Shown piece by piece: positions 20,205-37,302 of a stretch of 37,302 bases of DNA. Numbering within the stretch: the first letter of the stretch is position 1; each line of letters starts with the position of its first letter. The stretch is from the NCBI GenBank assembly GCA_948442255.1, contig CAOJRT010000015.1, positions 1-37,302 on the forward strand. Reading direction: 5' to 3'. The position numbers and the translations under genes were made by a program. This DNA is from an uncultured Caryophanales bacterium (GTDB lineage Bacteria > Bacillota_I > Bacilli_A > RF39 > UBA660). The notes beneath the pieces were generated by a model. It was given only the letters and a program-made list of their open reading frames with translations, had not been told where the DNA came from and made no database searches.

Positions 20205-20278
20205 GGGTCTATAGCCAAGTGGTAAGGCGTGGGACTGCAACTCCCTGATCGTTGGTTCAAATCCGACTAGGCCCTCCA
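20205..20278 (+). tRNA. tRNA-Cys (anticodon GCA)
   Basis: A 74-base cloverleaf with encoded CCA. The acceptor arm GGGTCTA pairs with TAGGCCC (one T.G), the anticodon loop CTGCAAC gives GCA, the T-loop is GGTTCAAATCC, and discriminator T is followed by CCA. It has its own promoter and terminator. The mobile region begins shortly after it, but no repeat of its 3' end is found further along the window. Confidence 0.95.
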
Positions 20279-20288
20279 TTTGAAAACA

Positions 20289-20320
20289 ACTTACGAACCA
20301 ATATGGTATCGTGAGTTTTT
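20289..20320 (+). terminator. Terminator of tRNA-Cys
   Basis: ACTTACGA (20289-20296) pairs with TCGTGAGT (20309-20316), one G.U, followed by TTTTT. Confidence 0.7.
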
Positions 20321-20370
20321 AATTTTATATAAAACTTAAAGTTCTCTTTCTAGGAAGGAGGACTTTTTTG

Positions 20371-20655
20371 ATGTTGGAATTTAAAACTATGGAAACATTA
20401 AATCCAAATACTGAAATCTTGGAGGCTATCAAAAATTACACTTACAAAGTTAAGAAAGGAACAGTTAAGCACTTATTACATACTAATTTACAAGTTATAG
20501 AGCCTACAGAGTATCAAATTACATATCCTGCTACTCTTACAATTTTAGAATATAAAGTTAATGAAATATCTAATAAGCCATTTTACATTAAAGAACATAA
20601 TCAAAAATATAATCTCAAAGAAATTATCCAAATTTTAAAGAAAATTAAAATTTAG
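20371..20655 (+). CDS. Small unknown protein upstream of a serine recombinase
   Basis: 94 residues from ATG at 20371, with AGGAGG at 20356-20361; an in-frame TTG at 20368 is also possible. No recognised domain, and the protein is Lys/Ile-rich with a single basic helix at the end. Small genes at this position before large serine recombinases often encode accessory or directionality factors, but no similarity is visible to support that here. Confidence 0.6.
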   Translation: MLEFKTMETLNPNTEILEAIKNYTYKVKKGTVKHLLHTNLQVIEPTEYQITYPATLTILEYKVNEISNKPFYIKEHNQKYNLKEIIQILKKIKI

Positions 20656-20687
20656 ACTTCACTTTTTCCGTTTTAGTGAGGAAACAT

Positions 20688-20777
20688 ATGGGAGGACATT
20701 TTTACAAATTCTTAAGTTTACTGTTTGCTATTTTGTCTTTCAGTGAGGAAACAAGTGAGGAGATGATTATTTTATGA
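20688..20777 (+). CDS. 29-residue hydrophobic micropeptide overlapping the recombinase start
   Basis: ATG at 20688 follows AGTGAGGAAACA and opens a 29-codon frame whose TGA overlaps the recombinase ATG as ATGA (20774-20777). The peptide begins MGGHFYKFLSLLFAIL and ends in an acidic stretch: a hydrophobic helix followed by Glu/Ser. The same 12 bases AGTGAGGAAACA recur at 20742-20753 inside the frame, just before the recombinase ribosome site. Overlap and spacing imply translational coupling. It may be only a coupling device or a real membrane micropeptide. Confidence 0.5.
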   Translation: MGGHFYKFLSLLFAILSFSEETSEEMIIL

Positions 20778-22563
20778 GATGTGCAGTATATGTAAGAGTT
20801 AGTACAGACGACCAAAGAGATAATGGTTATTCTATTGATTCACAACTTCGTATGATTAAAGAATATTGTGAGAAAAACGATTATAGTATTGTTGATGTTT
20901 ATAATGACGCAGGCCATTCTGGAAAGGATTTAATGCGACCAGAAATGCAAAGATTACTTGCTGATATTAAATCTAAAAAGATTGATAAGTTGATCGCTAT
21001 TAAAGTAGATAGACTTACAAGAAATAACTATGATGGATTTTGGCTTTTAAATTATTGTGAAGAACACGATGTTAAAATAGAACTTATTTTAGAGCCTTAT
21101 GATGTATCTACTGCTAATGGTGAAATGATATTTGGTATGAATTTAGTATTCGGTCAAAGAGAAAGAAAAGAAATTGGTGCAAGAACAAAGCGTGCTATGG
21201 AAGAAATGGCACTAGAGCATATCCACCCTAGTGAAGCACCCTATGGCTATATTAGAAATAAAGATACAGGACATTTAGAAATAGAGCCAATAGAAGCCCA
21301 AGTTGTTAAAGAAATATTTAAACTTTGCCAAGAAGGACATTCTACTAGAGGTATTGCTACTATTATGGAAAATAATAATGCTTATTTAAAAACAGGAAAA
21401 TGGCGAAGTGACAGAGTTTATAAAATACTTACGAATTCCATTTATATTGGCATATTTGAATATGGAAAATACAAAAGAAAACAACAGGATATTTTAAGGG
21501 TTAAGGCTATTGTGAGCCAATTATTGATGAAGTTACTTGGAATGCCACTAGAAATGTATTAGTGAAAAACAAGCACTCAAACTATGGAGAGTTTATCCAT
21601 TTGTTTTCTGGATTAGTAAAATGTCCGATATGTGGTAGTATTATGGCTTCTTCTGAATCTTTTAAATATCCTAATGGAAAACAAAAAATTTATTACCATT
21701 TAAGATGTAAAAATCATAATTGTAGTGGCTTTGGACTCCATTATAATACTGAAAAAATAGAAGTTAAATTAAGACGAGTTTTAGAAGAATTAACTATCTT
21801 TATGATGGTAACAGATAACGAAATTATTACTTGTAATTCTACAAAAAGTAATGATGTAAAAGAAATTGAAAAAGCGATTGAAAAGTTAAAAGTACAAGAA
21901 AAAAGATTAGTTGATTTATATTTAAGTTCTACATTAGATGTTGAGACAATTAACCACAAAAACGATGTTATCAAAAAAGAAATTGAAAAACTAAACAAAA
22001 AGAAAATAATTCTTGATCCAGATAATGAATCTAAAGAATACACAACAGAGCTTGTTAAAAAACTAGATTGTAAAAAGGAAGATGACAAACTGGTATTTAA
22101 AAATGTTAAGATGTTGGACTTCACTTTTTTCTACAATTTACTATCAAGAGAAGCCAAACGAGATATGATCCATAGACTTATATCTGGGATAGAAATTACT
22201 AGAGATGATAACTATAACATTGATATTAAATACATAAAATTTACTGATGAATTTATCACCAAAAGCAGTACAGAATTTATCAAATATTTATATATTCTTC
22301 TAAAAAATGATACTGTTGGTATTAAATATCTAAATGGAATAACTGAAGAAGAATTAGAAATTAAGAAAAAAGATTATGATGTTTTATCCATTCTAAAAAT
22401 GACAAATAATGAATATTTGAGTGAATTTGTTGATGATTTTTTTGCCAAAGCCCATAGTCATTTCTATGTAGATGGTATAATTGGCAGTCCCTATTTTGAG
22501 GGGAATGTTTCTAAAGATTTTCTATTATTAGTGCCTAAAAAAGAAGTAGTCAAAACAAATTAA
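20774..22563 (+). pseudogene. Large serine recombinase 1, frameshifted
   Basis: Frame one (20774-21562) holds the resolvase catalytic domain (YVRVSTDDQ with nucleophile Ser10, DRLTRN, the E-helix RKEIGARTKRAMEE) and most of the recombinase domain (APYGYIRN, then LTNSIYIGIFEYG). It then runs out of frame near 21509. The continuing frame restores the expected CEPIIDEVTWNATRN sequence, then the zinc ribbon (CPICGSIM ... CKNHNC) and coiled coil up to 22563. Inserting one base in the codon at about 21510 restores a single protein of about 597 residues. The break is not in a homopolymer. As read, the protein would lose its zinc ribbon and coiled-coil, which these recombinases need for synapsis control, so it is probably inactive. 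Confidence 0.85.
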
Positions 22564-22581
22564 AAATGAAAGGAGTTATCA

Positions 22582-22824
22582 ATGAAACAATTAACGAAAG
22601 AAAATATTCTAAAGAATCAAGTAAATACTATAGAACAATTTAAAGTACTTGACTATCTAAAAAAAACAATTATCTATTGGCGAGTTTGAGTATATTTAAT
22701 TGATAGATTTACTATTAAAGTTGTAGATAAAAACAAAGAACAAGGTTATTTTTAATACAATTCTAAAACAAAATCAGTGGATTTTTGCGAGAAAAATACT
22801 AAAAATAAAGAAGTGGAAAGATGA
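22582..22824 (+). pseudogene. Decayed small element protein
   Basis: ATG at 22582 follows AAAGGAG and reads about 35 codons (MKQLTKENILKNQ ... QFKVLDYLKK), then shifts frame at an A8 run. The restored frame continues IGEFEYI-stop-LIDRFTIKVVDKNKEQGYF-stop-YNSKTKSVDF up to 22824. One frameshift and two in-frame stops make this clearly dead. It looks like a small element protein commonly placed between recombinase and TnpV genes; I cannot name the family with certainty. Confidence 0.6.
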
Positions 22825-22828
22825 AAAA

Positions 22829-23182
22829 ATGGAATTAAATTATACAAAAATTGGCGATTATTTATTACCAAATTTAACAATAGAAAAACAAAATAACGAA
22901 AGAATTAATAAGTATGGTTATTTAAGATTACACTATCTAAAAGTTAATGATACAGCATTATATACAACACTTTTAATGAAAAATAAACTAACTAATCATC
23001 TTGTTTCAGTTAGTATCGAAGCAGAAAATAGATTAAATATTTTAATGAAACAATACAAAAATTATGATGGATTACTGTCTGAAAAAAGCAAAATAGATAA
23101 CCAAATTGAATGGGTAAAACTAATGAATAATTATAAAAATATGACTGAAGAAATTATTTTAAATGAACTAATTTATGTATGA
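22829..23182 (+). CDS. TnpV family transposon-encoded protein
   Basis: 117 residues. The start MELNYTKIGDYLLPNLTI and the core KYGYLRLHYLKVNDTALYTTLLMKNKLTNHL are typical of TnpV, a small protein of Tn4451-like and related clostridial mobilizable transposons. Its biochemical role is not established. The C-terminal helix (EAENRLNILMKQ) is also typical. It starts 4 bases after the decayed frame upstream. No obvious strong ribosome site except GTGGAAAG. Confidence 0.8.
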   Translation: MELNYTKIGDYLLPNLTIEKQNNERINKYGYLRLHYLKVNDTALYTTLLMKNKLTNHLVSVSIEAENRLNILMKQYKNYDGLLSEKSKIDNQIEWVKLMNNYKNMTEEIILNELIYV

Positions 23183-23186
23183 AAAT

Positions 23187-23212
23187 AGGACTGTAAAACA
23201 AGCAGTCCTTTA
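23187..23212 (+). terminator. Hairpin after TnpV
   Basis: AGGACTG (23187-23193) pairs with CAGTCCT (23203-23209). The T-run is short (TTTA), so termination may be weak. Confidence 0.5.
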
Positions 23213-23234
23213 TGATTTAGCCTTAAAATTGTGT

Positions 23235-23318
23235 GAGGATAAACTAGAATTTATGTCCTAGCCAGCACTGAAAACCTACTCCCGCATGTTTTCGATTTAT
23301 GGAAAATCCCATATCCTC
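23235..23318 (+). other. Structured region before the MobC remnant (possible oriT or leader RNA)
   Basis: A perfect 7-bp outer stem (GAGGATA 23235-23241 with TATCCTC 23312-23318) encloses a second helix (GGATAAA with TTTATGTCC, 23237-23257) and a GC-richer core around CTACTCCCGCATG. It lies just before a ribosome site and MobC-like coding, where oriT is often found in mobilizable elements. It could instead be an RNA leader. Confidence 0.4.
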
Positions 23319-23342
23319 AAAATTAGAAAGGAAAAGTAAAAA

Positions 23343-23498
23343 ATAAGAGCAAGAAATCTAAAAATCAATGTTTATTTAAACGAATCAGAGAAGAAAATGT
23401 TAGAAGAAAAATCTAATAAAGCCGGACTGTCGCAGTCTGAATTTATTACTAAACAAATTCAGAATATTAATGGCATAAGAAAGAAACTTCAGAATTAA
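23343..23498 (+). pseudogene. MobC-like relaxosome protein remnant
   Basis: The open stretch reads ARNLKINVYLNESEKKMLEEKS, then AGLSQSEFITKQIQ: the ribbon-helix-helix start of MobC accessory proteins that bind oriT. It has no usable start codon (a TAA lies upstream in frame at 23337) and stops after about 50 residues, against about 110-130 for full MobC. No matching relaxase follows, so this is the leftover of a lost mobilization module. Confidence 0.65.
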
Positions 23499-23503
23499 AA
23501 AAA

Positions 23504-23536
23504 GGCAATGTAAGATTGGAGTACATTGCTTTTTTA
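23504..23536. terminator. Bidirectional terminator
   Basis: Perfect 8-bp stem GCAATGTA/TACATTGC (23505-23529) flanked by A7 on the left and T7 on the right, so it can stop both the + strand MobC remnant and the - strand kinase-methyltransferase gene. Confidence 0.85.
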
Positions 23537-23598
23537 TAGAATCATATAATCTATAATATTTAATAGTTTTTTCATCTAAAGTTTCAGTTGAGTCAAAA

Positions 23599-25224
23599 CT
23601 ATCCTTTCTGTACCATGATTTTATATAATATTTTAGGTTTCGAATATTCTTCTTCATTTCTAGTCATAGGCACTTCTTCTGTTTTAATTGTACCAATTAT
23701 TCCAAAATATTTATTGATATCTTCTGAATCAAAAAATCTCTTTGTATAATCTCCTTCAAAATAAAAGTTTTTTTCTAGTTCTTTACCAACACCAGCTCCA
23801 AAATTAAAATCATTAACAGAGGCAACTCTTGATAGTAATATCCCATCATTTTTTAAAATTCTTTTAATCTCATTCATTATATGTATAGTTGTATTGTTAT
23901 CAAAATAATGTAAAGATAAATCTGCAATAACTAATGAATATGCATTATCATCAATAGGAAATTTTTCCATCATATCTAAATATTTAATTTTGCTATTTGG
24001 AATATTATCTTTAACACTTTTTAATGCCTCTTTTGAAAAATCACAAGATAAAACTTTATAACCTCTTTCTACCAAATAAAGAGTATCTGCGCCTGTTCCA
24101 CAACCCAAATCAAGTATTTCGTTATCTTTGTTATTTTCTAAAATATTACTATATTCATCTAGCCATAAATCATACACTTGAACATTACTTCTCTTTTTTG
24201 ACCAATTATCCCACATTTCTATATATCCATTGTTATTTTTTTGTATAATACTTTCCCAAAAATCTGGTGTACTAAAACTTAACCCTTTTTCACTTTCTCT
24301 TAGCCAAAATTCATCCTCTTCTGATATTTTTCCAAGACTACTCAAATAGCTAATTTGTAATATTCCCATTGCATTTGCAAGATCATAGAATAGTGGAAAA
24401 CACTCTAACTCATATTCTGTTAATTTATTATATTTTTGATATTCATCCATTATCATTCTTGTACTTTGTATTGTCTTAGCTTTATTATTTGGATTTAAAC
24501 ATAAATTACAAGATGTTACTGCCAAATCAACAATTCTAGGTAAATAATTTGATACTGCGAAATCAATAATCCATAACTTGCCATTATTGTCTTTCATAAC
24601 ATTTGAACTAATAATATCCCCGTGTACAAAACTTGTTGGCAAATTATCTAATTTAATATTCTTTAGTCTTTTTGTTAAACTTTCAAAAATATTATTATAT
24701 TTGTTATCTAAATACTTTCCTTTTTCTTCATATTCTTTAATGAAATTCGTTATAGTCCATTTATCATAAATAAAATTTGATTCTAATTTAGCATTATGTA
24801 TCTGTGCCATTTGAGAAATAATATTTTTTATTTCCTTTTTGGATGGTATTTCATTTAAATCATAAAAACTTTTACCATCTACATATTCAAATACACATAA
24901 TCTAAAATTAACATTATCTAATTTTATCTCACATAAATATGTCTTATCGCATTCATATACTTTTGGAGTATTTATTTTGAGTGTATTTGCTAATTTTATT
25001 CTATCAATATACATATTTACATCTTCAATAGTTCTATCTTTATTAAATACTTTTACACAATATTTCCCTTTATTGGTTATTAATATAAAATTAAAATCTT
25101 CATACCCAACTAAAATCATTTCTTCAGATAAGAATTTCCCTAAACTATATTTTTGACATACTATTTTTGCTAATTTGGATAAATCGGTTTTAAGATTTAT
25201 TCGCTCATAAAACTCTTTTAACAT
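23599..25224 (-). CDS. APH/choline-kinase-like and SAM-methyltransferase fusion
   Basis: 541 residues. The N-terminal half (about 1-310) is an aminoglycoside-phosphotransferase-fold kinase: KYCVKVF (ATP-binding Lys58), FVHGDIISSNVM (catalytic Asp203, metal Asn208) and WIIDFAVS (metal Asp221, in place of the usual DFG/DWE). The C-terminal half (about 330-541) is a class I methyltransferase with motif I EILDLGCGTGAD (371-380) and VLSCDFS, LVIADLSLHYF. So one protein could phosphorylate and methylate, perhaps on the same small molecule. ATG at 25224 follows AAGGAGG. Promoter shared with the DUF5677 gene 18 bases upstream. A self-protection or antibiotic-modifying role is inference; it could equally serve metabolite synthesis. 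Confidence 0.85.
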   Translation of the reverse strand: MLKEFYERINLKTDLSKLAKIVCQKYSLGKFLSEEMILVGYEDFNFILITNKGKYCVKVFNKDRTIEDVNMYIDRIKLANTLKINTPKVYECDKTYLCEIKLDNVNFRLCVFEYVDGKSFYDLNEIPSKKEIKNIISQMAQIHNAKLESNFIYDKWTITNFIKEYEEKGKYLDNKYNNIFESLTKRLKNIKLDNLPTSFVHGDIISSNVMKDNNGKLWIIDFAVSNYLPRIVDLAVTSCNLCLNPNNKAKTIQSTRMIMDEYQKYNKLTEYELECFPLFYDLANAMGILQISYLSSLGKISEEDEFWLRESEKGLSFSTPDFWESIIQKNNNGYIEMWDNWSKKRSNVQVYDLWLDEYSNILENNKDNEILDLGCGTGADTLYLVERGYKVLSCDFSKEALKSVKDNIPNSKIKYLDMMEKFPIDDNAYSLVIADLSLHYFDNNTTIHIMNEIKRILKNDGILLSRVASVNDFNFGAGVGKELEKNFYFEGDYTKRFFDSEDINKYFGIIGTIKTEEVPMTRNEEEYSKPKILYKIMVQKG

Positions 25225-25242
25225 AATTACAACCTCCTTATT

Positions 25243-25980
25243 TTAAAATTCTAAATTTGCTAAAGATACATTTGCATATTGTTTTTCAAATTCATTATAA
25301 AAAATGTCAGTAAGACTGTTTATTTGCCTTATTAAACAAAACTTATCTTTATTATATTTATTATTATAATCAGCATTTAGACTCTTATTATTATAATTAA
25401 CATACTGCGTTATAGTTCCAACGTAATTGTGAGTAGAATCGCAATTTAGTTTGTAAATATTATAATATAAATCTAATATTTCTGGAATTTTTTTAGATAC
25501 TATTTCTACCCTCTGAAATATGGATTTGCCGCACCAATTTGAAAGTTCTTTCTTATCATTTTTTATATTATATTTAATTTTAAACCTTTCAAAATTAGGA
25601 ACTGTTATATTATTATAATTTTTTTTATCAACTTTATCTTTAATATTTTGTGGCACACTTTTATATAACAGTACACGATTAACATCTTGATATTCACCAA
25701 ATCTTAAATACAACTTCCTGTCCGTTTCACAATATAAAAAATCAAGTAAAATCTCAAACATTGAACGAATAATAATATTTCCAGATGTTACCATATGATT
25801 AGAATCTAAAATAGTAACACCTCTTAACAAATCAATAAAATTAAATAACATAAGGCAAGGTGCTAATCGATATCCTTCATAATTTCCAGCAATTATAACA
25901 CTTTTAAATAAATTTTCTAATCTAGTTATATGTTCGTTATATTTTTTTAATTTTTGATTATCCACTAAATTATCAGGCAT
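25243..25980 (-). CDS. DUF5677 family protein
   Basis: 245 residues, all-helical looking, no membrane segment. The core LAPCLMLFNFIDLLRGVTIL, then NIIIRSMFEILLDFLYCETD, matches the DUF5677 pattern (R-S-x-x-E around residues 72-77). DUF5677 proteins are often found in accessory regions and have been suggested as HEPN-like. The RxxxxH ribonuclease motif of HEPN is not clear here, although CDSTHNYVGT holds a candidate His. The start follows AGGAGG. It heads a two-gene - strand operon with the kinase-methyltransferase. Confidence 0.65.
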   Translation of the reverse strand: MPDNLVDNQKLKKYNEHITRLENLFKSVIIAGNYEGYRLAPCLMLFNFIDLLRGVTILDSNHMVTSGNIIIRSMFEILLDFLYCETDRKLYLRFGEYQDVNRVLLYKSVPQNIKDKVDKKNYNNITVPNFERFKIKYNIKNDKKELSNWCGKSIFQRVEIVSKKIPEILDLYYNIYKLNCDSTHNYVGTITQYVNYNNKSLNADYNNKYNKDKFCLIRQINSLTDIFYNEFEKQYANVSLANLEF

Positions 25981-26036
25981 AAAATCCTCCTATAATTTAA
26001 TTATACAATAAATACTAAAATATTTATATACTCCCA

Positions 26037-26065
26037 TTGAAATTTAATAATAATTCATATATAAT
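26037..26065 (+). promoter_or_regulatory. Strong promoter before a structured leader
   Basis: TTGAAA (26037-26042), 17 bases, TATAAT (26060-26065). It is divergent from the DUF5677 operon and drives the RNA structure that follows. Confidence 0.75.
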
Positions 26066-26071
26066 ATTTTT

Positions 26072-26195
26072 TAGAAAGAGAACTAAGTTCGTAACTTGTA
26101 TGGGATTCGCTCCATTGGGAAATCTGTCCGAACTTTTATAGTTTAGGACTTAAAATACATAAGTATCAATTTCAAAAGAAGTTGGTACTTTTTTA
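26072..26195 (+). ncRNA. Structured leader RNA with terminator (riboswitch-like)
   Basis: After a strong promoter comes a 7-bp stem (AAGTTCG 26085-26091 with CGAACTT 26129-26135). It encloses a hairpin around GGGATTCGCTCC and the purine-rich GGGAAAT. A terminator follows at 26161-26194 (AAGTATCAA with TTGGTACTT, then T6). The decayed gene at 26226 starts 31 bases later. Promoter, aptamer-like fold, terminator and gene in this order is the standard layout of a transcriptional riboswitch or antitermination leader. I cannot assign it to a known class. Confidence 0.5.
26161..26195 (+). terminator. Terminator of the structured leader
   Basis: 9-bp stem (one G.U) AAGTATCAA/TTGGTACTT with an 11-12 base loop, then TTTTTT. 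Confidence 0.7.
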
Positions 26196-26225
26196 GTGTT
26201 TAAATTTGGAAAGGACAGGTTTTAA

Positions 26226-26500
26226 ATGATTAATATTACTACAAAGGAATTAGAGATTGAGCAAGAGTTAAAAAGGAAAATGAATTTATATGTGATTTTT
26301 GTAATACAAAACCTACTATTATTAATGGCAATATTCGCAATATTACCAGAACGAATTTGAGTTATGTTGAGCCACATAGAATTATTATTAAAGGTATAAC
26401 ATTTCTTGCTTTTAACTACTCTAAAACTTTATATATTGGTAATTTATCAGAAAGGCTAGAATTAAAAGATTTAGAAGCCTTTATAAAACAACTAAACTAA
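26226..26500 (+). pseudogene. Frameshifted small Cys-pair protein
   Basis: ATG at 26226 follows GGAAAGGACAGG and reads MINITTKELEIEQELKRK, then slips frame near 26278. The next frame continues EFICDFCNTKPTIINGN and runs to TAA at 26498, giving about 90 residues in total. CDFC could be half of a metal site. I do not recognise the family. Its promoter and structured leader are intact although the gene is broken. Confidence 0.5.
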
Positions 26501-26567
26501 AATATAAGCATTTGTACTAACTTCTCTTATAACAACCTTTAAATAGGTAAAAAATGGTAATTATGTC

Positions 26568-26595
26568 TTGACTTTAACTACAAACTCTTTATAAT
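26568..26595 (+). promoter_or_regulatory. Promoter of the interrupted recombinase 3
   Basis: TTGACT (26568-26573), 16 bases, TATAAT (26590-26595). The transcript starts near 26602 and meets a strong terminator at 26674-26726 before reaching the recombinase start at 26754. Confidence 0.75.
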
Positions 26596-26618
26596 AGGAA
26601 AGCAATAAAAGAAGTTTT

Positions 26619-26636
26619 ATGTTTTTGAGGGGTTAA
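26619..26636 (+). CDS. Five-codon leader peptide
   Basis: ATG-TTT-TTG-AGG-GGT-TAA between promoter and terminator, with AAAAGAAG just upstream. The product would be MFLRG. Such very short leaders occur in ribosome-stalling attenuators. The evidence is position only. Confidence 0.3.
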   Translation: MFLRG

Positions 26637-26673
26637 TATAAAACAAATTTAATATAACAACTTAATTATTATT

Positions 26674-26726
26674 AGAGGTGTCAAAGACATAAAACCAATT
26701 TAAGTGTCTTTGTCGCCTCTTTTTTG
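26674..26726 (+). terminator. Strong terminator between promoter and recombinase start
   Basis: A 16-position stem (26674-26689 with 26705-26720), one G.U and one mismatch, then T6 to T7. It lies upstream of the recombinase ATG, so it should restrict recombinase expression unless overcome. Confidence 0.8.
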
Positions 26727-28529
26727 ATGAAGAATAAGAAAGGATTTTGATTTATGAACGAAGAAAAGAAAGTCGCTGGAATCTACATAAGGGTGCCGTT
26801 GTAATACATAGACAGACACATTATCTTCTGTTTCTTCTAGTTCTTGTTTTGTTATCGTAAAACCATATTTACCGAAACTTGTTCCTATATCCATTTTTCC
26901 ATTTTGTAGGTTTTCGCTCACTAACTCGCCAGTTTTAAGAATAAACTTAATCTTATAAAAATCTTCTTCTCCATTTTCTAACTTTTCACCAATAATGATT
27001 TTCTCAACTAAATTACTGAAGACTTCTTCATTGAATTTAGTAAGTCCTTTATATTGCTTTAAAGTATTAGATATTTTATCAATTTGTTCTAATTTTTGCT
27101 TTCGTGTAAGTTCTATATTTTCCATATCTTTTAGTAGCTGCTCGTACTCTTTAATTCTGTTGGAAATTTCAATATTTTTTTGATTAAGTATTTCTTTTGA
27201 AATAGAGCCATCAAGTTGTAAATCAATCAGATTAGATAATTTATTTTCCAGTTTAGAAATTTCTTCCTTAATCTTCTTTTGATTATTATAATCTTGATTT
27301 TCATTGATGACTTCATTTACTTTTTTCATAAATGAATCGATGTATTTATCACTATCTTGAAATAGTTTGTCATAAGTAATTACAAATATATCTTCAAATT
27401 CTTTTTGTTTATAATGAATGAGATTTGAACAATCAATTTTATTTCTATGACTTCGACATATCCAATAAGCTACTTCTTTTCCATTACTTCTGATTTTGTA
27501 GGAACGCCTGATAAATCTCTCGCCACATATTCCACAAAAGATTTTACTACTAAAAGCATATTTTCTACTAAACTTATCTCTATTTCCATCTGGTTTAATG
27601 ATTTTACTTCTAATAGTTAGTATTTCTTGGCATTTATCCCATAAATCACGAGAAATAATTGGTTCGTGATGATTTGAAGTAAAGTATTGTTCTTTTTCTC
27701 CATAATTCACTTTCTTTTTGTGTGTTAAAACATTTTCGGTATAATACTTTCCTGTTTTTAAATCTCCAACATATTTTTCATTGATAATGATTCTTCGTAC
27801 TGATGCATGACACCATTTTAGATTAGAGGGACTAGGTATTCCTAGTTGATTGAGATTTAAAGCAATTGTTCTAAAACCTACACCTTTTGCATATTCTTCA
27901 AAAATATAAGTAACTATATCTTTTTTGCTTTCATCAGGTATTATTGTATCTTTTTCTTTGTCATATAGATAACCAAAAGGAGCATATTTTCCTACCAATT
28001 CTCCTCGTTTCATTTTCATACGAACTCCAGCTTTTACATTCTCTGAAATGGATTCGCTTTCGGCTTGGGCAAAAGCACTATATAAAGTCAAAAATAATTC
28101 ATTAGATAAACCAAGAGTATGGATATTTTCTTTTTCAAAATAGACATCTACATTATGTTCTCGGAGTAATCTTACACAATTTTAAGTATCAACTGTATTA
28201 CGAGCAAACCTTGATATAGACTTAGCTAGTATTAAGTCAATTTTACCATTTAAAGCATCACTCATCATTTGATTAAACTGTTCTCTCTTTTTCGTTTGAG
28301 TACCAGTTATACCCTCATCAGCATAGATTCCTACAAATTCCCAGTTTGGATTTTCTTCAATCATATTTTTATAATGGATTCGTTGTGAATCATAACTTGT
28401 TTTCTGATCTTCATTGTCTGTAGAAACTCTACAATAAGCACAAGTACGAATTAGTTTATATTTTACATTTCCTTTTAAGCACATTGTTTTAGAAGTTGGT
28501 GCTATTACTTCAACATTTTTATTATTCAT
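26700..28529 (-). pseudogene. Serine recombinase 2 (integrase of the inserted element), in-frame TAA
   Basis: The N-terminal part (28529-28185) carries the catalytic start RTCAYCRVSTDNEDQKTSYDSQ and LILAKSISRFARNTVDT, then a TAA (28182-28184). The same frame continues without shift: NCVRLLREHNVDVYF, AFAQAESESISENVKAGV, APFGYLYD, a zinc ribbon (CGICGERF ... CRSHRNKIDC) and a long coiled coil. TTA (Leu) to TAA would explain the stop. Full length is about 609 residues. The last 31 or so codons lie beyond the insertion point at 26795, in sequence belonging to recombinase 3 and its leader. As read, the enzyme is truncated at residue 115. Confidence 0.85.
26754..26804 (+). pseudogene. Serine recombinase 3, N-terminal fragment (cut by insertion)
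   Basis: ATG at 26754 follows AAAGGA and reads MNEEKKVAGIYIRV, the standard first strand of a large serine recombinase whose next residues should be S-T-E-D-Q. Instead the frame enters foreign sequence at 26795 and stops at 26804. The missing remainder, beginning [14 protein letters not shown], is found at 31711-33558. The two pieces are one gene interrupted by a 4.9 kb element. Confidence 0.85.
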
Positions 28530-28577
28530 TTATTCCTTTCTATAATTGTTGAATAATAGCATATTTCAAATATTTCA

Positions 28578-28763
28578 TTACGCAAAACTATACTCTGAAT
28601 TGTTTAATCTAATATATTTTGCATATTCGGTTTCAATTTTACATTTAAGTTTTTTGTATTCTTTATTATCAATTAAATTATTATCTTTGATAAATTCTAA
28701 CATAGCAATTTCTACTACATAAGATTTTAAATGTTCTAATTTTTTATCACTTCTTTCTTGCAT
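28578..28763 (-). CDS. Small protein upstream of recombinase 2
   Basis: 61 residues, charged, helical (KKLEHLKSYVVEIAMLEFIKDN; YKKLKCKIETEYAKYI). The start follows AAAGGGGGG. A TATAAT-like -10 on the - strand lies at 28843-28848. Genes of this size and composition commonly precede serine recombinases in clostridial elements; function unknown. It is separated from the recombinase by 48 bases and is likely cotranscribed with it. Confidence 0.65.
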   Translation of the reverse strand: MQERSDKKLEHLKSYVVEIAMLEFIKDNNLIDNKEYKKLKCKIETEYAKYIRLNNSEYSFA

Positions 28764-28942
28764 AAATTATTACCCCCCTTTAAATTCTTAAACAATTCAT
28801 ATCATAGTTACGCACCAACTTTCTAATAATAATCTAAAAAAAATTATAACGCGCTTACTCAGTTTATACAGCCCTACAAATAAAAAAGACAACTAAATGA
28901 TAGCTATCAAAATCGTAAAAATATGAAAAATAATAGTCATAC

Positions 28943-29265
28943 TTATGGCCAAAGTTATGGCCATCAAAAATACACTTTTTCCAAAATAATAAAAACAAAA
29001 TAAAAGCAGGATAAGCCTGTTTACAAACAACTAGCCAGTGGCTAGTTTCCCCTTATTTCATAAAGTATTATAAAAAATACGAGTGTTTACATTTTTGATA
29101 TTTGTTATACAATCGTTAACTTTGTCTTTTTTAGAAACCCTTATAAATAAAGACTTCCCAAAAGGTGTTTAACAATCGTACACACTTTTTCAACATAAAT
29201 TTTCTAAAATTTCGGCCATATTTTTTAGAAATTTCATTTGTTTTATGGCCATAAGTACAGCCATA
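28943..29265. repeat. TTATGGCCA repeat cluster
   Basis: Exact copies at 28943-28951, 28955-28963 and 29243-29251, with degenerate copies at 29213-29220 and 29259-29265. The core GGCC is palindromic, so both strands show the motif. In DNA this AT-rich, five GGCC/GCC-centred copies within 320 bases are unlikely to be chance. Confidence 0.45.
29029..29047. repeat. Perfect 9-bp inverted repeat
   Basis: AACTAGCCA, one G, TGGCTAGTT. A compact dyad of this size suits a dimeric repressor site. There is no T-run, so it is unlikely to be a terminator. Confidence 0.55.
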
Positions 29266-29293
29266 GATTAGAAGAAAAATGATGTAGGTATTT

Positions 29294-29390
29294 GAATATG
29301 AAAAAAGCACTACTCACAAAACAAGTAGCACCATTAGATACAATTTTTTCATATTCTACTATATTGTATCACTTGAATGTTAAAAGTCAA
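29294..29390 (-). ncRNA. Candidate short antisense/leader RNA with its own promoter and terminator
   Basis: On the - strand: TTGACT (29385-29390), 16 bases, TACAAT (29363-29368), then a transcript of about 60 bases from near 29356. It ends in an 8-bp stem (GTGCTACT with AGTAGTGC, two G.U) running into T6. The RNA start (GAATATGAAAAAA) is complementary over 13 bases to the terminator tail (TTTTTTCATATTC), so a competing fold could block termination. It contains a leaderless 12-codon frame (MKKLYLMVLLVL, 29352-29314). It may be an attenuator for the - strand genes or a free small RNA. Confidence 0.5.
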
Positions 29391-29589
29391 TAAGGATAAA
29401 ATGTCTGATATTTTGTTGATAAAATTGTTGAGTTAAATACCATTTAAACCTTATTTATAATATAAATATTCATTGATAAATTTACATAGATTTTAGATTA
29501 TTAATTACTATAAATATTTTTGATTTTATAATTTAAGTAAATAAATAAAGTGATTTAGTGATATAATTAATTTGAAAGAAGGTGTCATC

Positions 29590-30501
29590 ATGATTGATAT
29601 ACATTCACATACTACATATTCTGATGGTAGTTTTAGTGTTGAGGAACTTTTAAACGAAGCACAAAAAACTGGATTAAGTTTGTTATCAATAACGGACCAT
29701 AACACTATACAAGCGCATTTTGAATTACAAAATCTTAATGTTAGAAAAAAGTTTGATGGTGAAATAATTTCTGGAATTGAAATAACTACAACTTATAAAG
29801 GCGAAACAATAGAAGTATTGGGGTATGGCTTTGATTTGGAATTAATGCAACAATTTTTAAATAATAATGTATTAACTTTTGAGGAAAAACAATTAAGAGA
29901 ATATAAATTAATAAAAAATCAATACAAAAAAATTGGTGTTATTTTTGATGAAAATAATATTAAATTTAATCCTAAAGTGGAATCTTGTAGACCGGCTTTT
30001 GCTCTTGAAATAAAAAAATATCCTCAAAATTATAAATTTTTTTTAAATCAAGAGTCAATAAATACAACTAGTGGATTCACTAGGAATGAAGTGTATAATC
30101 CTAAAAGTCCATTATATGTTGATGAATCATCATTGTTTCCTAGTTTAGAAAGAGCAATAGAAATGATACATCAGTCAGGTGGAATAGCATTTTTAGCTCA
30201 TACCTTTGCATATTCTCCTAATATTTCAAACCAATTATCAGATATAATAAATAATTATGAATTAGATGGCTTAGAATGTTGTTATACAACTTTTACAAAA
30301 GAACAATCAGATTATTTATTGAAAGTATGTAGAGAAAAAGGAATGTATATGAGTGGTGGAAGTGATTTTCATGGTACTAGAAAAATAAACCATAATTTAG
30401 GAACTGGGAATGGAAATTTATGTATTGATGAAAGTTTAGTAAAAAGTTGGATAAATAGATTTTTACCAGATTTCAATAATTCCAAAGGAAAAGCAAAATG
30501 A
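29590..30501 (+). CDS. PHP domain phosphoesterase
   Basis: 303 residues from ATG at 29590, chosen over the upstream TTG (29572) because GAAGGTG lies just before it. PHP metal motifs are present: DIHSHTTYSDGS at the N-terminus, ITDHNT, a Glu in SGIEITT, FLAHTF and the C-terminal GGSDFHG. Family members include the 3',5'-nucleoside bisphosphate phosphatase/RNase AM type and histidinol phosphatases. This one is of RNase AM-like size but lies in an accessory element. It overlaps the next gene by 4 bases (ATGA), so the products are made together. Confidence 0.85.
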   Translation: MIDIHSHTTYSDGSFSVEELLNEAQKTGLSLLSITDHNTIQAHFELQNLNVRKKFDGEIISGIEITTTYKGETIEVLGYGFDLELMQQFLNNNVLTFEEKQLREYKLIKNQYKKIGVIFDENNIKFNPKVESCRPAFALEIKKYPQNYKFFLNQESINTTSGFTRNEVYNPKSPLYVDESSLFPSLERAIEMIHQSGGIAFLAHTFAYSPNISNQLSDIINNYELDGLECCYTTFTKEQSDYLLKVCREKGMYMSGGSDFHGTRKINHNLGTGNGNLCIDESLVKSWINRFLPDFNNSKGKAK

Positions 30502-31409
30502 AAGTATTAAGTTTAACGGAGCCATGTGCTACTTTAATAAAAGAAAAAAAGCAATTAATTGAAACAAGAAGTTGGAAAACTGATTATCGTGGTGAATTAT
30601 ATATTCATGCTAGTGCTACTTCTATTCCAAAAGATTGGAAAGAAGATAAAGAATTTATGTCACTTTTAGATGATACACCATTAAATTTTGGCTATATAAT
30701 TTGTAAATGTACTTTAGTTGATTGTATTTATATGACAAAAGAATATGTAACGAACATAAAAAAGAATAATCACCAAGAATATATTTGTGGTAAATATGAA
30801 GAAGGAAGATATGCATGGATATTAGAAAATATAACACCATTAGAACACCCTATCAAAGCTAAAGGTCAATTAAATATATGGAATTATTATAATGAATTTG
30901 AAATAATGGATTTAATGAAAAATATTGATTATGGTTGGATTGATAAGGATAATAAAAAACATGTTCTAGTTGATGAAACTTATTCAGATAATTACATATT
31001 ACAATCTCCTAAGGAAATTATAAAAAATAAAATTGGTATATGTTGGGATCAAGTGGAACTTGAAAGATATTATTTTAAAGGGAATGATTGGAATATTAAA
31101 ACCTATTTTTTAGTTCATTATGATGGAGATAAATGTCCAACACATACATTTTTAACATTTGAAAAAAATAATAAATGTTATTGGTTTGAGCATTCGTGGG
31201 AAAAATTTAGAGGAATACATGAATACAAGTCTTTAAAGGAACTATTATTTGATATAAGAGATAAATTTATAAAATATGAGTTGGATAATGATTATGTTGT
31301 AGATAATTTAGTATTACATGAACATAAAAAACCAAAATATCATATTTCTGTTCAAGAATTTTATAATCACTGTGACTATGGAACATATATTGAGTTTGAA
31401 GAATTATAA
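30498..31409 (+). CDS. ASCH domain fused to a transglutaminase-like/papain-fold domain
   Basis: 303 residues. Residues 1-130 match ASCH: VLSLTEPCATLIKEKKQLIETRSWKTDYRGELYIHAS, then an AWILENI strand and GQLNIWNY. ASCH is a PUA-like RNA- or nucleotide-binding fold, and some members are ribonucleases or amidohydrolases. Residues 135-303 look like a papain/transglutaminase fold: IGICWDQVELERYYF (candidate Cys), CPTHTFLTFE (candidate His) and CYWFEHSWEKFRGIHEY (candidate acidic/His). The ATG overlaps the PHP stop. The fusion could combine RNA recognition with an isopeptide or amide cleaving activity. A terminator follows directly. Confidence 0.7.
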   Translation: MKVLSLTEPCATLIKEKKQLIETRSWKTDYRGELYIHASATSIPKDWKEDKEFMSLLDDTPLNFGYIICKCTLVDCIYMTKEYVTNIKKNNHQEYICGKYEEGRYAWILENITPLEHPIKAKGQLNIWNYYNEFEIMDLMKNIDYGWIDKDNKKHVLVDETYSDNYILQSPKEIIKNKIGICWDQVELERYYFKGNDWNIKTYFLVHYDGDKCPTHTFLTFEKNNKCYWFEHSWEKFRGIHEYKSLKELLFDIRDKFIKYELDNDYVVDNLVLHEHKKPKYHISVQEFYNHCDYGTYIEFEEL

Positions 31410-31440
31410 ATAGCTTTCTTTTTTTAAAAAGCTATTTTTC
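31408..31440 (+). terminator. Terminator of the PHP-ASCH operon
   Basis: AAATAGCTTT (31408-31417) pairs with AAAGCTATTT (31428-31437), followed by T-rich sequence. It overlaps the ASCH stop codon. Confidence 0.8.
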
Positions 31441-31481
31441 TTTTATTCAACAATTATTATTGTAATTTGAAATATGCTATT

Positions 31482-31646
31482 TTAAAGCCCTAACGATAAA
31501 GTTACATCTAATTTATCAATATGGACTTTTTTTTGTTCTGCTTGAGTACCAATAGTAATATTGGTATTTATTTTGTAATCAAAATTGATGATATCTAGTG
31601 TTTTAAAATAATACGGTATATGTGTTCCGTAAGAGTTAGTACCCAT
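31482..31646 (-). CDS. Possible 54-residue protein or C-terminal remnant
   Basis: On the - strand an ATG at 31646 opens 54 codons (MGTNSYGTHIPYYFKTLDIINF ... LDVTLSLGL). The frame is open a further 18 codons upstream with coding-like sequence, so it may be the tail of a lost gene. No good ribosome site and no recognised family. Confidence 0.35.
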   Translation of the reverse strand: MGTNSYGTHIPYYFKTLDIINFDYKINTNITIGTQAEQKKVHIDKLDVTLSLGL

Positions 31647-31705
31647 ACTCTTATATGTGAAAAAATAAACGGAACATGATATACAAAATTTCTCACTTTA
31701 AAGTG
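31611..31705. repeat. Nested inverted repeats at the right end of the inserted element
   Basis: GTATATGTGTTCCGT (about 31617-31631) is complementary, with a small bulge, to ACGGAACATGATATAC (about 31669-31684). Inside lies TAAGAGT/ACTCTTA (about 31630-31652). A perfect 12-bp palindrome CACTTTAAAGTG (31694-31705) abuts the GT core at the right junction. These are likely recombinase or directionality-factor binding sites of the attachment region. Confidence 0.45.
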
Positions 31706-31710
31706 TATGA

Positions 31711-33558
<1,848 letters not shown>

Positions 33559-33636
33559 TTTGCAATTACTTGAATAATTTTTAAATATAAAATAAAAAGC
33601 AGTGCTTTCTATTTTATCAGAAGTCTTATGTAGTTT

Positions 33637-33790
33637 TAATGCTTATCGTTGCTTAGCATTATTACGAAATAAGACGGGTGGATTCTAAGGTTGCCTAAAC
33701 CTTAGCCCCCATATTTTGATACTTGTGTCAAAATATATAGGGGTTTAGAGATTTTGACAAACCAAAATTACCCTACTATAAATAGTAGGT
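33637..33790 (+). other. Probable oriT region of the MobV-type module
   Basis: Four inverted repeats lie within 155 non-coding bases just before the relaxase gene: TAATGCT/AGCATTA (33637-33661); CTAAGGTT/AACCTTAG with a 5-base loop (33685-33705); CCCC-ATATTTTGA/TCAAAATAT-(ATA)-GGGG (33707-33743); and CCTACTA/TAGTAGG (33772-33789). Position upstream of a MobV-type relaxase and nested hairpins are what oriT regions of this class show. The nick site cannot be fixed by eye. RBS AAGGGGG follows at 33801. Confidence 0.6.
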
Positions 33791-33818
33791 CTCTGCTTTA
33801 AAGGGGGAATATAGAAAT

Positions 33819-35156
33819 ATGGAAGAATTATCTTATTCATTACATTTAAGTAATGATAAAAATAAATCAAAAAAAGCAAAAAGAAGTGTAAAAAATACTG
33901 AAACTGGAACTACTTCTTTATCTAATAATGCTATCCAAAATCATCAATAGTTATCAAAAGTTGATAAACATAATTTAAGAAAATATGATGAAGAACAAGA
34001 ATTAATTTGTACGATTAAAGGTACTTCTTCTATTGTTGAAGATACTAAAAATTTGTATATAGATTTATTTGAACATGCAAGAATAAAATACAATGAAAAG
34101 CAAACAAGAAATGATAGAAAAATAGAAAATTATTTTAATCATATCTCTAATGATAATAAAAGAGATCTTGCTTGTGAAATTATTATTGAACTTGGAGATA
34201 TGGACTTTTGGGCAGATAAAGATGATAAATTTAAGAAGAAAATGACAGAAGTTTTTAAAGAGCAAATACTAGATTTAGAAGAAATTGTACCAAACTTTAA
34301 AATAGCAAATGCCACCATACATTTTGATGAATCTAGTCCTCATTTACACATAGTTGGTATTCCTTTTAAAGATGGAATGAAAAATGGCATGGAAAAACAA
34401 GTTAGTAAAAGTGATGTCTTTAATAAAATAAGTTTAGTAAATATTCAAGACAAAATGAGAGAATATTGTATCAATTCATTCAATAGAATTTATCATTTAA
34501 ACTATACTCTTAAAGCAAAAGAAGAAGGCAGAAATGTTGATATTAATGTTGCAAATATGAATGAATATAAAAAGTTTAAACGAGAACAAGAAAAATATAA
34601 AAAGCAACTTAATGAATTAAATAATAAAACAGAAGAATTGCAAAATAAATCTAGTGAGATTAATGATATTATAAATAATCTTAAAACTACTATCACTAAT
34701 AAAAATAATTTCACTATTTCTAATGAAAGTATAGATAAGATTAAAAAATATATAGAACAAACAAATGACACTACTTCTAATTTGAGAAATGCGAATGATA
34801 TAAATATAGTCTTAAAAAAATATGAAGATGATTTAAGAGAACATTCTAACGAGGTTAGAAATTTAAAAAAGAAAATCCAAACTCGTGATGAAAAAATTGA
34901 GAATTTACAATATGATTTAGATAATGCAAATGATACTATTGATGAATTAGAAGATAAAGTATCAGCACTTCAAGAAGCTTTAAGTTATTTTAAAGAATTA
35001 TGGCAAAAGTTTATAAAGTTTTTGCAAGATAAATTCTTCTCTTCTAATAAATATGATGACTTTATTAACGATTTATATGATGAAGATGTTCTTGATGATA
35101 ATGATATTGATATTATTCAAAATAATTCAAAAAATAAAAATGATTTTGAGAGATAA
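33819..35156 (+). pseudogene. MobV (Pre/Mob) relaxase with in-frame TAG
   Basis: ATG at 33819 follows AAAGGGGG. Codon 44 is TAG (33948-33950), within NHQ-stop-LSKVDKHNLRKYD. The frame then continues without shift through the relaxase body, with the metal-binding HFDESSPHLHIVGIPF and a long coiled coil from about residue 250 of the full protein. CAG or CAA to TAG would explain the stop; full length is about 445 residues. Restart from TTG at 34053 would lack the N-terminal DNA-binding part. It is either a recent nonsense mutation or needs suppression. Confidence 0.75.
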
Positions 35157-35171
35157 ACTAATCAATCAAAT

Positions 35172-36170
35172 TCATCTTTTTTTGACTAAAGTTTTATTAA
35201 TATCTAAAACTATTGATTTTGTATAATTAATATCATTAATATGCTTGTGTATAAAATCAACATTATTATTTTTTACTTCCTGTGGATATTTTGCATTATT
35301 ATTATAAATAGTATCTAATAATTCGCATAATTGCTCATAACTACAAATACTAGTGTTACTACTAATAAATTCTTTTATTATCCCTATTTCACCATCAAAT
35401 TGATGTTGATTTATTAAATTTATAAACATTTCATTTAGTAAAAGAGGATATAAAAGTTTAACTTCAGAATTGTAGCCAATGGCTCTATATTTTCCATCAG
35501 GTTGACTAGTCTTTAGTGAATCTAAATATCTTTTTAAATTGTTATTTTCAATTTTATATTTTCTAAAAGACATTATTCTATTAACCAAAAGTTCAGTAAT
35601 ATAAGTATTAGTTATTTCATCTAAAGTAGTTCCTGTTCTTTTAGTAGAAAAGTGTTCCTCTGTATCATCATCTCTTAAATAATATGTTTCTTGTAAGCCA
35701 CTTCTCATATAATAGGTATTTTCATCTAATAGAATATTTGTATTATAATATCCCATTAGAGCATGCCGAACTTCATGCGCTAACATTTCAAGTTTCAAAA
35801 CAGGCGTTGCTAAATAGTCTTCCACATGAGTTCCTAATAATATTGTTTGTGGATTTTGTTTCAAACTAGAATCTTTAAAAACTTTTAAATTAGGTACAAA
35901 AATAGTAACAGCAGCACTTCCACCCGGCATTTTACCAAAATTATTTTTTAATGATATTTCATCTACAGTACCAAGATCATATATAATTTCAACTTTATTA
36001 AATAAATCGTATAAAGGAAAATCACAATTTTTTCCAAAATCCATATAAAAACTAAGATATATAAATGTAATCATATTTAATAATTCTTCATTATAGTTAT
36101 ATTTTTGAGCAATATCTTTTAATAAAAAATATTTTTCACTTAATAATTTATTAAATTTAATACTATCCAT
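35172..36170 (-). CDS. HExxH zinc metalloprotease-like protein
   Basis: 332 residues. LAHEVRHALMG (His132, Glu133, His136) is a canonical HExxH zinc site, with a candidate third ligand in the helix TTLDEITNTYITELLVN about 55 residues later. No signal peptide or membrane segment, so it acts in the cytoplasm. The rest is helical and not recognised. Its ATG shares one base with the TAA of the VWA gene (TAATG), a tight translational coupling that implies joint action. It ends 16 bases from the relaxase gene, tail to tail. Confidence 0.7.
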   Translation of the reverse strand: MDSIKFNKLLSEKYFLLKDIAQKYNYNEELLNMITFIYLSFYMDFGKNCDFPLYDLFNKVEIIYDLGTVDEISLKNNFGKMPGGSAAVTIFVPNLKVFKDSSLKQNPQTILLGTHVEDYLATPVLKLEMLAHEVRHALMGYYNTNILLDENTYYMRSGLQETYYLRDDDTEEHFSTKRTGTTLDEITNTYITELLVNRIMSFRKYKIENNNLKRYLDSLKTSQPDGKYRAIGYNSEVKLLYPLLLNEMFINLINQHQFDGEIGIIKEFISSNTSICSYEQLCELLDTIYNNNAKYPQEVKNNNVDFIHKHINDINYTKSIVLDINKTLVKKR

Positions 36171-37302
36171 TACATAAACCTTCCTTTATATTTATTTTTA
36201 TTTTTTTCTCTTATAAATTTTTCAATATCTTCAATTCTAGAGGTTTCAACATAATATCCCATATAAGAACTAGGATATTCTCTATAAAAGAAACTATGAG
36301 AACCATAATCTTTTTCAGTAGAGAACCATACTATGTTTTGATTTTCTTGAGATAATCTCGAAATATCTCTGCTAATATCAAAGTCAGAAAATATATAGAT
36401 TCTTCTATCCTTTATATCTTTTAGTTCTTCATAAAGCGAACGATATTCATTAAAAATAGTACATTCAAAATTGTTATAATTTTTAATTTCAGAATTTACT
36501 ATTTTACTAACATCAATATTTTTAGCATTTTCTTTTTTTATTAATAACTTTCTTAAAATACAATCATTATATGTTAAATATATTAATGAATTCTTTATAG
36601 CAACACTGCTAATAGCATTAACATACATTTCTAATGATTCATTATTTGATGGTGATAAATCAAAAACATAAACATCTGGTTTAAATGTAGGACTTACAAG
36701 ATCATCTATAATTTTAAATTTTTGATTTGTTAAATAGTGTTTAACTATTTCTTTTTTATCATATTTATATGTTCCTTTTTGATATCTTTCATAACTTAAA
36801 GACACTAATTTTTTTAAAACTTTATAAATTTTTGTAGTAGTAATATCATCAAGTTTATCACTAGCTGAATGTGTTTCTTTATGCTGTTTATCTTCTTGTT
36901 CTCTGCTATGATTTTCATCATAATTATTCATTAAATCATCAAAATCATTTTCTTCAGATTCTTGTTCTGAACTTTGTTCTTGTGGTTGTTCTTCAGTTTG
37001 TTGTTCTGAACTCTGTTCTTGCGATTGTTCTTCAGTTTGTTGCTCTGAACTTTGTTCTTGCGATTGTTCTTCAGATTCTTGCTTTGAACTCTGTTCTTGT
37101 GGTTGTTCTTCAGTTTGTTGCTCTGAACTTTGTTCTTGCGATTGATCTTCAGTTTGTTGCTCTGAACTCTGTTCTTGCGATTGTTCTTCAGATTCTTGAT
37201 TTGAACTCTGTTCTTGTGGTTGTTCTTCAGTTTGTTGTTCAGGACTCTGTTCTTGCGATTGATCTTCAGTTTGTTGCTCTGAACTCTGTTCTTGCGATTG
37301 TT
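36170..37302 (-). CDS. VWA-domain protein with tandem Gln/Glu/Ser repeats (5' end outside the window)
   Basis: The frame is open to the window edge; the ATG at 36931 is internal. From the edge inward come nine 13-residue Gln/Glu/Ser repeats (36950-37300), a short acidic linker (NDFDDL), a charged helical part and a C-terminal von Willebrand A-type domain. The VWA metal site is VYVFDLSPSN (DxSxS at 91-95 counted from the internal Met), with IYIFSDFDIS later. Acidic low-complexity region followed by VWA is the plan of CobT-type partners of AAA+ ATPases. Such an ATPase gene would be expected upstream, beyond the window. The stop overlaps the HExxH gene start. Confidence 0.7.
   Translation of the reverse strand, partial: QSQEQSSEQQTEDQSQEQSPEQQTEEQPQEQSSNQESEEQSQEQSSEQQTEDQSQEQSSEQQTEEQPQEQSSKQESEEQSQEQSSEQQTEEQSQEQSSEQQTEEQPQEQSSEQESEENDFDDLMNNYDENHSREQEDKQHKETHSASDKLDDITTTKIYKVLKKLVSLSYERYQKGTYKYDKKEIVKHYLTNQKFKIIDDLVSPTFKPDVYVFDLSPSNNESLEMYVNAISSVAIKNSLIYLTYNDCILRKLLIKKENAKNIDVSKIVNSEIKNYNNFECTIFNEYRSLYEELKDIKDRRIYIFSDFDISRDISRLSQENQNIVWFSTEKDYGSHSFFYREYPSSYMGYYVETSRIEDIEKFIREKNKNKYKGRFM
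36950..37300 (-). repeat. 39-bp tandem repeat, nine copies, continuing off the window
   Basis: In-frame units of 13 codons with consensus QSQEQSSEQQTEE. Every third unit is the variant QPQEQSSxQESEE, giving a higher-order period of 117 bases (A-A-B repeated three times). Copies differ by single bases (E/D at the last codon; E, N, K in the variant), so the array has grown by duplication of three-unit blocks. Confidence 0.9.

Follow-up and report, generated by a model that had tools for sequence, protein, structure and literature searches.

An AAA+-VWA-HExxH operon of an uncultured Caryophanales bacterium and its sister cassette with an ankyrin protein

Introduction

Few of the widespread MoxR/VWA pairs have a known target. 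The DNA analysed here (the window) is a whole contig of 37,302 nucleotides, C15, from the genome of an uncultured Caryophanales bacterium of the gut (1.64 Mb in 80 contigs). At its right end, a VWA gene is followed by a gene for a protein with an HExxH motif. This arrangement raises the question of whether the two proteins belong to an AAA+/VWA machine and, if so, whether the HExxH protein is the partner on which this machine acts.

Organization of the operon

The features of the two genes in the window, all on the minus strand, are as follows.

36170..37300, minus strand: VWA gene, C-terminal 376 aa, open at the contig end
36950..37302, minus strand: Glu/Gln/Ser repeat arm of the VWA protein, tandem, with a 39-bp unit and a 117-bp higher-order unit
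36647..36661, minus strand: DLSPS, first MIDAS motif (D91, S93, S95; residues numbered from M at 36931)
36377..36391, minus strand: FSDFD (residues 181-185), candidate MIDAS Asp loop (D183, D185)
36168..36172, minus strand: TAATG, in which the VWA stop codon overlaps the HExxH start codon
35172..36170, minus strand: HExxH gene, 332 aa, gluzincin-like third component
35763..35777, minus strand: HEVRH (H132-H136), the HExxH motif
35616..35618, minus strand: codon of E185, candidate third metal ligand within LDEITNTYITE, invariant in 24/24 homologs

An earlier note on this DNA, made from the letters alone, had described a DxSxS site and an acidic repeat arm in the VWA protein, and both are present, as DLSPS and as the Glu/Gln/Ser tandem repeat. 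The one-base overlap of the VWA and HExxH genes that it had reported is likewise confirmed: the junction reads GTAATGG on the minus strand, with one base common to the stop codon TAA and the start codon ATG, and the positions given for H132, E133 and H136 are all correct. The note had further predicted an AAA+ ATPase gene just outside the window. The right end of the window falls inside the VWA repeat arm, where the assembly is broken. When the ATPase of a related locus was used as a query, a match with 81% identity was detected in the same genome at C10:968-3250 on the minus strand, and contig C10 carries the following two features.

C10:965-3250, minus strand: AAA+ ATPase gene, 761 aa
C10:3-965, minus strand: N-terminus of the VWA protein (MENIPNLEELLDYGEEYQ...), running off the contig start inside the Glu/Gln/Ser repeat

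The predicted ATPase gene is thus located directly upstream of the VWA gene, and the stop codon of the former and the start codon of the latter overlap by one base (ATAATGG). C10:496-595 repeats the final 100 bases of the window on the same strand. Because contigs C10 and C15 end in the same repeat and the ATPase gene overlaps the region for the VWA N-terminus, the two contigs carry one operon, which encodes the AAA+ ATPase (761 aa), the VWA protein with the repeat arm, and the HExxH protein in this order, and which is split by an assembly break in the repeat.

The ATPase matches AAA_5 of Pfam at an E-value of 6.5e-14, passing the cut-off, and the GDPGCGKT and IDELDK sequences (Walker A and B) are conserved in the ATPases of this operon and its relatives. 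AAA_5 is the Pfam family of MoxR/CobS-like ATPases, within which this ATPase is presumably to be assigned to MoxR. The assignment agrees with matches of the ATPase on plasmids, which are annotated as MoxR and cover only the AAA+ domain.

VWA protein

D91, S93, F181, D183 and D185 are invariant across 10 VWA proteins, which represent both the operon described here and the sister cassette described below. DLSPS and FSDFD are conserved, and N122 is an invariant residue near the place where the MIDAS Thr would be expected. The ATPase is therefore accompanied in the same operon by a VWA protein with a MIDAS pattern, formed by DLSPS and FSDFD. The sister set has the canonical DxSGS, from which DLSPS differs, and a four-residue insertion is needed at this place to align the two. 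The VWA protein of the operon stays below every VWA cut-off of Pfam, and one VWA protein of the sister cassettes gives a weak, sub-threshold match to VWA_CoxE at the right place. In an AlphaFold2 model of the VWA protein (pLDDT 50; 56-76 in the core blocks), strands and helices alternate. When this model was used for a Foldseek search, several VWA-fold proteins were among the top matches, none of them below an E-value of 0.001.

A short conserved stretch flanks the repeat arm on either side, IPxLxELLxYG...DYF on one and ENDFDDL/ENDFNDL on the other. Its length and wording vary among loci, but its acidic character is kept. Homology is claimed here on the basis of the VWA, AAA+ and HExxH domains, with the low-complexity arm left out.

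HExxH protein

The HExxH protein has no family match in Pfam, NCBIfam, PADLOC or PHROGs, and no peptidase family match in Pfam, NCBIfam or PDB. Searches of PDB sequences gave no informative relative. Like the HExxH protein, the VWA protein matches none of the described families. Alignment of 24 homologs indicates that H132, E133, R156, G158, E185 and N188 are invariant and that H136 is nearly invariant. E185 is located 49 residues after H136, and an HExxH motif with an invariant downstream Glu fits a gluzincin; this feature, common to the gluzincin metalloproteases, is present as a sequence pattern only. An AlphaFold2 model of the protein, built with five close homologs in the alignment, has a mean pLDDT of 40, which is too poor to define a fold; that it sets HExxH and E185 in helices supports a gluzincin weakly. 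Because both fold models, of the VWA and HExxH proteins, are of low confidence, metal binding and proteolysis are predicted for the HExxH protein from its conserved residues.

Of 291 genomes sampled from the family, 26 encode a homolog of the HExxH protein, mostly in a stand-alone gene, and the profiles of the operon and stand-alone proteins match with 99.2% probability. The stand-alone homologs (L035-L053 and one on contig C5 of the source genome) are scattered over the family, are about 310 aa long and typically read HEFNHAVNS...EEIINTxQTE. They represent a protein family without description in the libraries searched. No AAA+ or VWA genes were seen beside them, indicating that the HExxH family in general does not require an AAA+/VWA machine. 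The paralog on C5 (C5:14117-14878) has HEYNR instead and has lost the second His.

Conservation and distribution of the operon

Close relatives were detected at five other loci, L030, L031, L032, L033 and L034 (the last in genome G261). The earlier note had called for a search for the three-gene set elsewhere; the set is intact and in the same order on single contigs in three other genomes (L030, L033, L034), with overlaps of 1-4 bases at both junctions. At L031 and L032, the VWA-HExxH pair is present and the contigs begin inside the arm, so that the stretch for an ATPase would lie beyond the contig. Thus, the pair is kept in six loci and the ATPase in all four that are open to view, indicating that the pairing of the VWA and HExxH genes is not due to chance. 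HEVRH and E185 are kept in all six copies. The dN/dS values are 0.11-0.20 across the three genes, and 0.36 for the HExxH gene against G261; all three genes are under purifying selection. An assembly artefact was rejected in view of the intact operons on single contigs elsewhere and of dN/dS values far below 1.

The operon was found in 4 genomes of a 385-genome sample and in none of the four congeners searched. No relatives of it were found in phages, plasmids or IMG/VR; the IMG/VR matches to the ATPase profile are MoxR/VWA-like neighbourhoods of other families.

Sister cassette with an ankyrin protein

Searches with the ATPase and VWA profiles identified twelve further genomes of the same family, in which a VWA gene is followed by a gene for an AAA+ protein of ~600 aa and then by a third gene. 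The sister ATPases match the profile of the operon at E-values of 1e-31 to 1e-41, and the VWA profiles of the two cassette types align with each other (hhalign, 97.6%, E 2.7e-12). In samples of 395 genomes of the class and 392 of the phylum, matches were found only inside this family. The third gene encodes ankyrin repeats at 12/12 sister loci. None of the eleven plain ankyrin proteins contains HExxH, and no HExxH homolog is encoded in those sister stretches. Because homologous AAA+ and VWA genes are accompanied by an ankyrin gene instead at all of these loci, the constant module consists of the AAA+/VWA pair, and the slot of the third gene is exchangeable. The HExxH protein is therefore an exchangeable third component and not an obligate part.

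In the remaining sister third protein (L094:2956-4113), BspA-type leucine-rich repeats precede the ankyrin repeats, and this fusion is a hint that the third slot may serve for recognition.

Accessory island

The features of the window that bear on mobility are as follows.

20205..20278, plus strand: tRNA-Cys, left border of the island
20774..22563, plus strand: serine recombinase/integrase, spread over two frames, next to the border within the island
30498..31409, plus strand: ASCH-like and transglutaminase-like protein, matches below the Pfam cut-offs
31771..33558, plus strand: large serine recombinase in the island
34053..35156, plus strand: MobV-type relaxase, apparently without the N-terminal ~38 profile positions

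The genes to the left of position 20141 of the window, tRNA-Cys and a homolog of C10:4783-5727 are located together in the same order and orientation in the congener G265. The distance from tRNA-Cys to the C10 flank gene is ~1.6 kb in G265, whereas window 20278-37302 and C10:1-4783 together bring it to at least 21.8 kb in the present genome. This difference between the same flanking genes supports both the adjacency of C15 and C10 and the location of the operon on an accessory island. The ATPase shares 81% identity with its counterpart in another genus, whereas two proteins flanking the island are 54-64% identical to those of congeners, which suggests that the operon was horizontally transferred.

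The island contains the serine recombinase gene beside the tRNA, two more recombinase genes and the MobV-type relaxase gene. Placement of the operon on mobile DNA beside a relaxase, as read in the earlier note, is thus supported for this genome, where the element is mobile or accessory. In the relatives, the operon is not beside a relaxase; at L030 and L034 its neighbours differ from those here, and one at L034 reads as the core gene ffh.

Probable mode of action

The earlier note had proposed that the pair delivers or activates a protease in a defence, toxin or maturation system; its prediction of a translationally coupled AAA+ gene in a recurring three-gene set is supported, and the functions that it proposed are hypotheses. 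The operon is best read as encoding a MoxR/VWA pair that remodels a metalloprotease-like protein, its dedicated client or effector. The working model is taken from Midasin/Rea1 and the Mg/Co chelatases (BchID, CobST), in which an AAA+ ring, an acidic linker and a C-terminal MIDAS domain are combined. Unlike in these proteins, AAA+ and VWA are encoded here by separate genes, and none of these proteins is among the matches of the PDB sequence searches. According to this model, the AAA+ ATPase would form a ring, and the VWA protein would dock on it and grip an acidic residue of its partner with its metal site. ATP hydrolysis would then pull or twist the partner held by the VWA protein. The HExxH protein would be the dedicated partner, which may be remodelled (metallated, unmasked or repositioned) and active only while the machine runs; related machines have an ankyrin-repeat protein in its place. 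We infer ring assembly, VWA docking and the direction of action.

In NorQ/NorD, a finger of the VWA protein enters the AAA+ pore, and MIDAS is required for activation of the target, but not for binding to the ATPase; ATP hydrolysis has been proposed to twist the linker and thereby open the target, whose gene belongs to the same operon (PMC9976466, PMC13036017). By analogy with NorQ/NorD, the third protein, which is the HExxH protein in this operon, is likely to be the MIDAS partner, and the leading model is therefore its activation. The whole account, in which the operon serves to activate or metallate a metalloprotease-like protein with the energy of ATP, has in our judgement about an even chance of being correct. 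'Client' may be the wrong word and 'adaptor' the right one, because no enzyme can be recognised in the third component of the sister cassette.

A somewhat unlikely alternative is a mobile conflict or defence system, in which the AAA+/VWA pair would restrain the protease and free it on a phage or plasmid signal, so that the cell is damaged or the proteins of the invader are cut. The island with its recombinases and relaxase, the patchy distribution and the exchangeable third component are consistent with this alternative, and variable effectors as well as peptide-processing add-ons of the zincin type have been described for MoxR-vWA systems (PMC7159879). However, the VWA and HExxH proteins have no match in PADLOC, the matches of the ATPase there are weak and at the AAA+ level (PDC-M37B, 1e-6, partial; TRIP13, 0.006), and VMAP-C, iSTAND and FtsH components are absent. 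No recognisable defence genes are present among the island genes scanned, and the sister cassette of one genus is located between conserved chromosomal genes. A broader proposal, that small-genome gut bacteria possess a new class of modular AAA+/VWA machines, in which one conserved engine takes swappable third proteins, among them a metalloprotease of an unrecognised family that is turned on by ATP-driven remodelling and used in conflicts between mobile elements or phages and the cell, is unlikely to hold in full.

The characterised MoxR/VWA pairs are maturation or repair factors, and it is conceivable, though quite unlikely, that the operon likewise serves host housekeeping by maturing or repairing an enzyme encoded elsewhere, with the HExxH protein as a non-cleaving adaptor that has kept the fold. 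The chromosomal location of the stand-alone homologs and the HEYNR sequence of the C5 paralog, without the second His, would agree with such a role. Retention of HEVRH and E185 in every operon copy and the accessory position of the operon on an island argue against it.

The AAA+ and protease-like proteins of one coupled operon might also divide labour as in Clp, with the AAA+/VWA pair as unfoldase and adaptor that feed substrates to the HExxH protease. We regard this substrate delivery as very unlikely, because the sister cassette contains no protease; moreover, the VWA finger of the structurally solved NorQ/NorD pair plugs the pore, which argues against threading (PMC13036017), and the ATPase is closest to AAA_5 and not to the Clp/FtsH families. 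An ordinary Clp/FtsH-type protease operon is rejected for the wrong AAA+ family and the sister cassette without a protease, and VMAP membership for lack of the defining domain.

Comparison with known systems

The known systems closest to the operon include two groups of MoxR/VWA systems. The MoxR/VWA maturation pairs (NorQ/NorD, CbbQ/CbbO, CoxD/CoxE, RavA/ViaA) similarly consist of an AAA_5 ATPase and a DxSxS VWA protein encoded in an operon beside the likely target gene, and in NorD, as in the VWA protein of this operon, a disordered linker joins an N-terminal part to the VWA domain at the C-terminus. The operon and the sister cassette differ from these pairs in that their ATPases have 600-760 aa, with a long unassigned C-terminal region, that the VWA protein carries a Glu/Gln/Ser repeat arm and stays below the Pfam cut-off, and that the third gene encodes an HExxH or ankyrin protein. 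The MoxR-vWA ternary conflict systems (VMAP, iSTAND, FtsH) are similar in that MoxR and vWA are combined with a third component, in their variable parts and in their patchy spread, and some of them carry an accessory zincin metallopeptidase (PMC7159879). Unlike in these systems, no effector is fused to the VWA protein, and the HExxH or ankyrin protein is the product of the third gene itself. Pfam domains of VMAP-C, iSTAND and FtsH are absent from the VWA and third proteins of either cassette, and the match of the ATPase to iSTAND is sub-threshold (14.8 bits against a cut-off of 24). A combination of MoxR, VWA and a metalloprotease or ankyrin partner was not found described in the open-access literature. 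The operon therefore appears to be a modular variant of known MoxR/VWA systems that is as yet undescribed.

Because the same engine is found with two different third proteins, whether the neighbour is the target is directly testable by a partner swap. If the HExxH protein is a protease under an ATP-driven VWA machine, this would be an unusual mode of protease control.

Neighbouring genes

A 560-604 aa protein of unknown family is encoded directly downstream of the operon at L030 (L030:9175-10989) and L031 (L031:2002-3693); it was dropped as a fourth part, since it is present at these two loci only. The ASCH/transglutaminase-like protein of the island has a 76% identical homolog directly downstream of the operon at L032 (L032:2163-3089) and a 42% identical homolog near the operon at L034 (L034:7570-7881). 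Being near the operon in 3/6 loci, it may travel with the operon. The serine recombinase genes at window positions 20774-22563 and 26700-28091 are split or without the N-terminal domain, and the island resembles layers of mobile elements in partial decay. It also contains, at 23599-25224 on the minus strand, a gene for a fusion of an APH-type phosphotransferase and a methyltransferase, adjoining a gene for a DUF5677 protein. The stand-alone HExxH genes often directly follow an apparent DNA polymerase IV gene (dinB), or adjoin a GatB/YqeY-like gene.
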